A DNA stretch of 64,000 bases from Candidatus Peribacteria bacterium (GTDB lineage Bacteria > Patescibacteriota > Gracilibacteria > UBA1369 > 2-02-FULL-48-14), in NCBI GenBank assembly GCA_943357175.1, contig CALRGE010000001.1, forward strand, positions 1-64,000, in the 5' to 3' direction. The notes beneath the pieces were generated by a model. The model did not search any database and was not told the DNA's origin. It worked only from the letters and a program-made list of their open reading frames with translations. Made by a program: the position numbers and the translations under genes. This document shows positions 22,830-24,826 of the stretch, piece by piece (positions within the stretch are counted from its first letter, which is position 1; each line of letters starts with the position of its first letter).

Positions 22830-23996
22830 ATGAAAAAGATTAGCAAAATAGGAAAGTTTTTTAAGACAAACCTTGTCTATCTTCTTTTATTTTTGTTGAT
22901 TGGCATGCAGGTGTGGCAGGGTTACAAGTTCAAAAATACTCTGGCACTTTTTGATTCCTTGGGTGGTGATAAAAATCAGGTTATTGAGGAGCTTTCAAAA
23001 ACGAGATCTTATGTGAAGGAGTTTGGAGCTGATATGAATCAGATTCGAAAGTTTTTACTTTTACCAACTAAGGATTATGTTTTTGATAAAGAAGAAGATG
23101 AGGTAGTAGCGAGTGATGATATTACAGCTAATTTTTTCGACTTTATTACTGCTCTTCAAAAGTCTGATCAAGATGCGAAAATGTTTAGTGATGCAATGGA
23201 AGCAATTAAATCTTGGGTTTTGACTGATCTTGGTGGTGGATTGAGCGTTGTGAATGATGGGTCGATTTTCAAGTTTATGAATAGCTCCGGTAGTGAAGTT
23301 GCTAAAGTTGTTTTGTCTACTGAAGGTGAAATTGAGGCGACTTCATTTGGTGCTGAGGAAATTTATTCAGGTGGTTCTGTTGAAGATTTGATTGCTGCTT
23401 TTAAAGGTTTTGTTGCTGGAGATCTAATCCAAGTAGAAAAAAATATTGAAGCTGTGCGCGTTGCTAAGTTGAAATTAATAAGTGAAACTTTACCATCGGC
23501 AGAAGTTCAGGCTGTTCTAAATTCCAAGAAAATAATTTTTAGTGCTGAGAAGGAAAATGAAACTTCATATTATTATGATCTGACAAATTCATCAGGTGAT
23601 TTAGTGGGGACTTTAAGTATAAGTAAAAGTTCTGCATGTTTAACTTTGAATGATGCTTGCGTGACTGATTTGCTTGGAGCGTTGACTACTTTAGATGTGA
23701 GAAGTGCTTTGGAGAAAAAAGTGGCTGATCGAAAGAAGCAGATTGATGATCTACTTTTAGATGCCGGCTTTCAGGCCACATTGAAAAAATCGTCTATCAG
23801 TATAAGTTTTTCTGATGAAACAGATAGCCGAGTGAATTATAAAGTTAGTTCCGGTTTGCAGGTTTATACTATATTTATAGACAAGTCGACAGGGCAGGTG
23901 ATGGTGGAAAAATCTGGCGGCGGAACCTCAACTCTACTCAGCGCAACCGATGAGCTTAGGCTCAAAAAAAAAGCCCCGACTTCTCTGTTGAGCTAG
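22830..23996 (+). CDS. Membrane-anchored N-terminal part of an LCP-family protein (0 frame)
   Basis: 388 aa: a basic N-terminus, one TM helix (about 14-29), then a large extracytoplasmic region with two related alpha/beta segments and no family that I recognise. The frame ends at 23994-23996 just after ...LRLKKKAPTS. The LCP domain continues in the -1 frame. The overlap contains an A9 run (23964-23972), an 8-nt spacer and a stem-loop (23981-24018). Terminated normally it would give a membrane protein without LCP domain; after a -1 shift it would give a 665-aa anchored LCP enzyme. Confidence 0.75.
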   Translation: MKKISKIGKFFKTNLVYLLLFLLIGMQVWQGYKFKNTLALFDSLGGDKNQVIEELSKTRSYVKEFGADMNQIRKFLLLPTKDYVFDKEEDEVVASDDITANFFDFITALQKSDQDAKMFSDAMEAIKSWVLTDLGGGLSVVNDGSIFKFMNSSGSEVAKVVLSTEGEIEATSFGAEEIYSGGSVEDLIAAFKGFVAGDLIQVEKNIEAVRVAKLKLISETLPSAEVQAVLNSKKIIFSAEKENETSYYYDLTNSSGDLVGTLSISKSSACLTLNDACVTDLLGALTTLDVRSALEKKVADRKKQIDDLLLDAGFQATLKKSSISISFSDETDSRVNYKVSSGLQVYTIFIDKSTGQVMVEKSGGGTSTLLSATDELRLKKKAPTSLLS

Positions 23997-24018
23997 CAAG
24001 TGAAGATTTAACAGAGAA
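23964..24018 (+). promoter_or_regulatory. Candidate programmed -1 frameshift signal
   Basis: 0-frame codons CTC AAA AAA AAA GCC form an A9 slippery run. After an 8-nt spacer (GCCCCGAC) comes a perfect 9-bp stem TTCTCTGTT (23981-23989) / AACAGAGAA (24010-24018), extendable inward by three more pairs counting G-U. This is the geometry of known -1 sites. The run could equally allow transcriptional slippage, or be a one-base homopolymer deletion. Confidence 0.55.
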
Positions 24019-24037
24019 TCCGACGGATTTTAACCTT

Positions 24038-24826
24038 TTGTTGCTCGGTCAAAACGGTACAAATGTGGACACGATAATGTTTGCGAACGTTAGTATCGAT
24101 AATCGTAAGATCAGTTTGGTCAGCATTCCGCGTGATCTTTATTATCAAGATCAGAAAATTAATGGGGTTTATGCAAAGTATGGAATGTTTGAATTTCAGA
24201 AGGAAATTGAAGATATAGTTGGAATGAAGATTCAAAAATATATAATGGTAGACATGTATGTTTTTGCCGACATCATTGATTTGATGGGTGGGATTGATAT
24301 GACACTAGATGAAGATTTGGTAGATCCAACCTACAAAACTTGTGACAATGGTGTTTGCTCCACTCTTTATTATCCGGCTGGTGATTATCATTTTAGTGGT
24401 GTGCAGGCTTTGCGAGTTGTGCGTTCAAGACACACAAGTTCAGATTATTCTCGAGCAGCTCGACAGCAGTTAGTATTAGAAGCAGTAAAGTCAAAAATTG
24501 CAGGTTTGCAATTAGGTGATGGAGCGAAAGTTTTGGCAATTATCAAAACTGTTTTGGCTTCAACTCAGTCAAATATTACACTCGACGAAGCGCTTTTATA
24601 TTACTTCCGCTTCCAGAGTTTTGATCTAAATGGTGGCAACGTAATTAGTAGCGGAAATGTTTTGGATTCGGTTCAAGTTCCTGTCGATTACACAACTAAT
24701 CGTACTCAAGAAATTTGCTCAGAAGATGGTGCTTGTGAAGAGGGTTTCGTGATAGATACTCTTTCACCACGTGGCGGCGACTGGGAATTGATTAAGAAGT
24801 TTGTGAGATATTCGATTGAGCAGTGA
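24038..24826 (+). CDS. LytR-CpsA-Psr (LCP) catalytic domain, -1 frame continuation
   Basis: LCP enzymes transfer undecaprenyl-linked glycopolymers to the cell wall. The frame is open from 23960 and has no ATG before the domain; 24038 is only a TTG inside the first strand, NLLLLGQNG. Motifs: VSIPRDLYYQDQKINGVYAK (pyrophosphate-binding Arg), MGGIDMTLDEDLVD, and SGVQALRVVRSRHTSSDYSR followed by AARQQ, all LCP hallmarks. It lacks its own TM anchor, which LCP proteins need. The anchor is encoded in the overlapping upstream frame, so the two ORFs are best read as one gene. It meets the next gene tail to tail (24826/24827). Confidence 0.8.
   Translation: MLLGQNGTNVDTIMFANVSIDNRKISLVSIPRDLYYQDQKINGVYAKYGMFEFQKEIEDIVGMKIQKYIMVDMYVFADIIDLMGGIDMTLDEDLVDPTYKTCDNGVCSTLYYPAGDYHFSGVQALRVVRSRHTSSDYSRAARQQLVLEAVKSKIAGLQLGDGAKVLAIIKTVLASTQSNITLDEALLYYFRFQSFDLNGGNVISSGNVLDSVQVPVDYTTNRTQEICSEDGACEEGFVIDTLSPRGGDWELIKKFVRYSIEQ

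Follow-up and report, generated by a model that had tools for sequence, protein, structure and literature searches.

The window analysed here, a stretch of 64,000 nucleotides (nt) of contig CALRGE010000001.1 (assembly GCA_943357175.1) from a Candidatus Peribacteria bacterium, contains a gene for a LytR-CpsA-Psr (LCP) enzyme that is divided over two overlapping reading frames, which meet at an unbroken run of nine adenines (A9; Table 1). We propose, with a probability of roughly 0.7, that this run, like the runs of nine to eleven adenines in its orthologs, is a programmed transcriptional slippage site. One gene probably specifies two proteins, namely a membrane-anchored form that is free of the LCP domain and a fusion that carries it. 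The comparisons below support that the split is real and that the junction is under selection, with two products as the best reading.

Table 1. Features at the divided LCP gene of the window (aa, amino acids; bp, base pairs; ORF, open reading frame)
Feature	Position	Strand	Remark
0-frame ORF, 388 aa	22830..23996	+	no LCP domain; TAG end 24 nt past the A-run
GGCTC-A9-GCC, possible 4-bp hairpin (GGCT/AGCC) with the A-run in the loop	23959..23975	+	in part of the split orthologs too; significance uncertain
A9 slippery run, phase AAA AAA AAA	23964..23972	+	A9-A11 at the equivalent position in orthologs
-1 frame LCP coding region, 286 aa counted from inside the run	23966..24826	+	PF03816, start-codon scan, solved relatives
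Perfect 9-bp stem, 20-nt loop	23981..24018	+	this genome only, not conserved
0-frame TAG stop	23994..23996	+	LCP +1 frame, as the near stops conserved in orthologs

Across the run the 0 frame reads CTC AAA AAA AAA GCC, and the -1 frame stays open over 288 codons, ending at 24826. A Pfam search matched the -1 ORF to LytR_cpsA_psr (PF03816; E 6.7e-30, 104.7 bits against a cutoff of 24.6) and returned no match for the 388-aa ORF. The product crossing the junction would have 665 residues, continuing after the lysines of the run with SPDFSVELASEDLTENPTDFNLLLLGQNGTNVD..., and the short form would end in APTSLLS. An earlier note, made from the letters of this DNA, had described an LCP gene in two frames, with the anchor in the 0 frame and the LCP domain in a -1 ORF lacking a start codon. 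Its description is borne out by the Pfam match, which falls on the -1 ORF only, and by the start-codon scan, in which the earliest start codon of the -1 frame is the TTG at 24038. Its positions for the A9 run, the 8-nt spacer and the perfect 9-bp stem were exact, and its alternative of a 388-aa LCP-free and a 665-aa anchored LCP product agrees with the recomputed lengths and with two products as the best reading.

The A9 run is the sole A or T run of at least nine in the window. A pattern search identified about 16 A runs of this minimum length on both strands of the 1.23-Mb genome; the run at 23964-23972 is the only one observed to connect a pair of long, overlapping ORFs on its strand. Three A9-A10 runs lie inside long ORFs elsewhere in the same genome (G000:C6:41550, C7:51058 and C11:31022; loci L173, L176 and L179), the run of L173 being located in an apparent threonyl-tRNA synthetase gene.

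Orthologs were collected from 59 relatives, then from the order and class, and by a scan of 84,980 species genomes. They were found in Candidatus Peregrinibacteria/Peribacteria genomes of families f1, f2, f9, f12 and f14, and in f34 of another order. After removal of duplicates, 47 non-redundant loci with at least nine A at the junction remained, the window's own included. The run is unbroken in all of them, with nine A in 19 loci, ten in 27 and eleven in one. Relative to the upstream ORF, the LCP frame is -1 in 23 loci, +1 in one (L088) and continuous in 23, one of the latter being from a spirochaete (L130). Family f14 is mostly continuous with A10, families f1, f2 and f34 are split, and f9 contains all three states. 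The earlier note had suggested comparison with related genomes, and the run and the -1 overlap do recur in them (23 of the 47 loci being split in this way). Continuous relatives without the run, which that note had named as evidence against a programmed site, are not general, as the sole continuous exception is an ortholog of family f3 with A7.

Judged from the sequences, the run is under selection and is not simply the result of lysine coding. Elsewhere in the ORFs that carry it (96 kb), such runs number only three (one A9, two T9), and the 13 other stretches with three or four lysine codons each contain a codon other than AAA. Also, no A or T run of at least nine could be identified in any of 37 LCP paralogs. 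The sole ortholog that has lost its N-terminal region (L093, genome G016) has lost the run too. From the run on, the LCP frame retains a conserved linker with the pattern LPxxIPxY. These per-locus tests share ancestry, so they are not independent and should not be multiplied naively.

A second conserved property is a stop codon in the alternate frame. In 22 of the 23 continuous genes a +1-frame stop lies at most 12 nt past the run, compared with about 7 expected when synonymous codons are redrawn from each gene's own usage. The stop is built in various ways, i.e. as CTA-G, TTA-G, ATG-A (ATG AAT) or ATA-A (ATA AAA), and stands one codon later in L103. In the continuous genes, the +1 frame is the frame entered by a transcript that is one A short. 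The short ORF of the split -1 genes ends naturally in the LCP +1 frame as well, at most 12 nt past the run in 17 of 23. Since the near +1 stop of the continuous genes is in the frame of the natural stop of the split genes, both layouts specify one and the same protein pair. This suggests that the conserved feature is the dual output and not the choice of default product.

In the proposed mechanism, RNA polymerase would gain or lose an A while copying the run, giving mRNAs of different frames from one gene. The templated A9 mRNA of this genome would yield the 388-aa membrane-anchored protein, and mRNA with one A more the 665-aa LCP-bearing protein. In the A10 in-frame relatives the templated mRNA would yield the LCP enzyme, and mRNA one A short the short form. 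We infer that RNA polymerase is the agent and that both products are present in the cell. The orthologs combine a conserved run of at least nine A at the frame junction, a stop in the alternative frame, and a varying direction of the shift, as -1, 0 and +1 frame relations all occur among them. Differing frame direction among orthologs was taken as a sign of transcriptional realignment in a GeneTack study (PMC3711429). Slippage of RNA polymerase on A9 is efficient and well established in bacteria (PMC1088944, PMC5009743). Transcriptional slippage is favoured because a -1 shift does not fit the +1 stop of the continuous genes, the +1 ortholog L088 or the lengths of 9-11, and because slippage on A9 is an established process.

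The fusion in the split genes could alternatively be made by programmed -1 ribosomal frameshifting or by sliding of the ribosome on AAA AAA AAA, stimulated in the window by the downstream stem, an explanation that we consider unlikely. Every run-bearing -1 locus has the heptamer A AAA AAA or A AAA AAG correctly phased, and dnaX orthologs employ either mechanism (PMC3711429). The window adds a perfect 9-bp stem (arms 23981-23989 and 24010-24018) that begins 8 nt downstream of the run, and none of 60 shuffles produced an equally long one. However, this stem is conserved nowhere beyond the window: a perfect stem of at least 8 bp was found in one of the 47 loci only, that of the window, and the folding z averages -0.35 over split loci and -0.02 over continuous ones. 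A conserved stimulator stem was rejected, with a mean z of about 0 over the 47 loci. Moreover, a slippery heptamer needs only 7 nt, yet the runs stay at 9-11, and a -1 shift can reach neither the +1 stop of the continuous genes nor the +1 ortholog L088. The canonical -1 ribosomal cassette that the earlier note saw here is not upheld by the orthologs, in which the stem is not conserved, the near stop of the continuous genes is in +1 and the frame relation varies. For the window's gene alone, -1 ribosomal shifting is possible.

Phase variation, with mutation of the tract at DNA replication turning the LCP enzyme on in some sub-populations and off in others, would suit a homopolymer tract within a surface-acting gene, and lineages do differ in frame state. 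Nevertheless, frame state follows the tree (a quick tree was used), with 6 changes versus a mean of 15.6, and a minimum of 9 in 300, under shuffled labels, and it is uniform inside each of f1, f2 and f34. Fast switching should populate both off frames, yet all but one of the 24 split genes are -1. As frame state is stable in descent, rapid phase variation is disfavoured, and we regard it as improbable. A reading as two separate genes, with the LCP part begun by re-initiation or coupling, is very improbable, even though the ORF overlap is short and TTG or GTG codons occur near the junction in some loci. The stretch from the run to the LCP core lacks a start codon in 8 of the 23 split loci, and conservation of the linker LPxxIPxY starts inside the run, which excludes re-initiation for many loci. 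In addition, half of the orthologs consist of one continuous ORF, and an LCP domain without anchor would remain in the cytoplasm. Hardly credible, finally, is a sequencing or assembly error, or a pseudogene. The window does derive from a single metagenome-type genome and the junction is a homopolymer, but the run and the frame logic recur in dozens of independently assembled genomes; an assembly slip as origin of the A9 is ruled out by the orthologs, and the residues of the LCP motifs are conserved.

Several points weigh against a conserved transcriptional slippage site. Just one of the 24 split genes needs a +1 change, and the remaining -1 cases suit ribosomal shifting too. Ribosomes can also slide on AAA runs, and we know of no measurement of slippage by a Peregrinibacteria RNA polymerase. 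Two orthologs that keep the full N-terminal region are exceptions to A9-A11, as the run is just A7 in the continuous f3 ortholog (L126), and L127 (genome G352, family f34) has T7 (GATTTTTTTCAATAA) instead of an A-run, which argues that the A9 run is dispensable. Furthermore, the loci are kin, which limits the independence of the per-locus tests. In L127 the LCP frame is still -1 and a stop follows directly after the T7, which is possibly a replacement slippage site.

The flanks of the run are able to pair, with the A-run in the loop, in the window and in L094, L101, L104, L111, L118, L081 and L083. The longest pairings are those of L111 (7 bp) and L101 (6 bp); among 15 split loci sharing one phase type, 7 pair over at least 4 bp. 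Such a hairpin might assist slippage from within the nascent RNA, or might result from dual coding.

LCP enzymes such as TagT/TagU/TagV and Cps2A link glycopolymers to peptidoglycan on the outer side of the membrane. The LCP part encoded here has profile matches to 3nxh, 6uf3, 6uf6 and 2xxp, with TagT/TagU/TagV and Cps2A as relatives, and its PRD, R-x-x-R-x-R and R-Q columns, invariant across 20 orthologs, correspond to the conserved Arg and Asp residues of the LCP domain. The 388-aa form has a hydrophobic N-terminal membrane helix, followed by a coiled coil and helix/beta-meander repeats (AlphaFold model, mean pLDDT 86.6). A Pfam scan of 39 N-terminal regions gave weak matches only, each in a single member. 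Assignment of the 388-aa part as a YpeB C-terminal domain (top Foldseek match, E 2e-4, low TM score) was rejected, as was assignment as Mediator or OspA (top rows of VIA-align, in pieces, Z below 10); both were taken to reflect generic repeat geometry, and the part was assigned to no family. The predicted long form is an LCP phosphotransferase carried by the anchor and extracytoplasmic region of the short form. Anchor and catalytic domain are united on one polypeptide only in the trans-frame product of the split genes, and directly in the continuous orthologs. The LCP domain on an anchored protein is shared with TagT/TagU/TagV and Cps2A; unlike in these, the LCP domain here follows a long N-terminal region that no Pfam profile matches, with the proposed slippage site between the two. 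The short form may partner or compete with the long form, and their ratio may matter for attachment of glycopolymers to the wall. If the proposal holds, it suggests that LCP enzymes may cooperate with enzyme-free partners. By analogy with tau/gamma, the mixture could, for example, serve mixed complexes of LCP-bearing and LCP-free subunits.

Two-product slippage, with split and continuous layouts side by side, is already known from dnaX; the gene family, the lineage and the scale of conservation are new, as far as the literature searched shows. About half of the Thermus dnaX product arises via slippage at A9, with near stops in both other frames (PMC5009743, PMC1088944). As described there, Thermus thermophilus dnaX (tau/gamma) has a sense-strand A9, a long product from one ORF and near stops leading to the short product, which is the layout of our continuous orthologs. 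It differs in gene and pathway, and here the split layout, including that of the window, is also present. GeneTack has also identified split dnaX genes with 9-10 A (PMC3711429); they have the same adjacent ORFs and -1 shift at poly-A but encode a replicase subunit instead of a wall enzyme. In Shigella mxiE and spa13 and in genes of insertion sequence (IS) elements, the longer product depends on slippage (PMC1088944, PMC5009743), which parallels the split orthologs; these genes are unrelated, and a default-frame switch over a large ortholog set is not described for mxiE or spa13 in the text consulted. The -1 ribosomal frameshift of E. coli dnaX (A AAA AAG) shares the slippery lysine codons and, in the window, a downstream stem, but here the stem is unconserved, the run exceeds the heptamer and the near stop of the continuous genes is in +1. 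No LCP gene with a slippage site ahead of the enzyme domain was found in literature searches, and the papers searched included none linking Peregrinibacteria with frameshifting or the candidate phyla radiation with transcriptional slippage.

A wider reading, for which we see about even odds, is that Peregrinibacteria produce a wall enzyme and its own enzyme-free anchor in a set ratio by stuttering of RNA polymerase. Selection would then act on the mixture and not on the genomic frame, since the default product would have switched repeatedly with the dual output retained. If true, a large lineage would have conserved programmed slippage in a wall gene that is chromosomal and non-mobile, within the candidate phyla radiation, whose gene expression has been little studied. 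The 47 loci would represent natural variants with a varying default frame and a constant product pair. Annotation tends to label half of these genes as broken and to overlook the short form in the other half.

An operon partner common to all groups was looked for and none was seen; no relatives were found among viral contigs (for the LCP part) or plasmids (for the N-terminal part). More distant, fused homologs with 35–41% identity occur in Spirochaetales (L130-L137), the majority without the run; L130 has A10 and a +1 stop 11 nt past it. These homologs possibly reflect gene transfer between groups. Locus L096 (JAUVQE010000043.1) is titled Nitrospirota, yet it is a Peregrinibacteria-type ortholog and sister to L099, and probably lies on a mis-binned contig. 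Finally, L120 (G077) and L122 (G078), from one genus, both have A10 but differ in a T8 versus T9 about 20 nt upstream, which places G077 out of frame; the T8 of L120 is either a second slippery run or an error.
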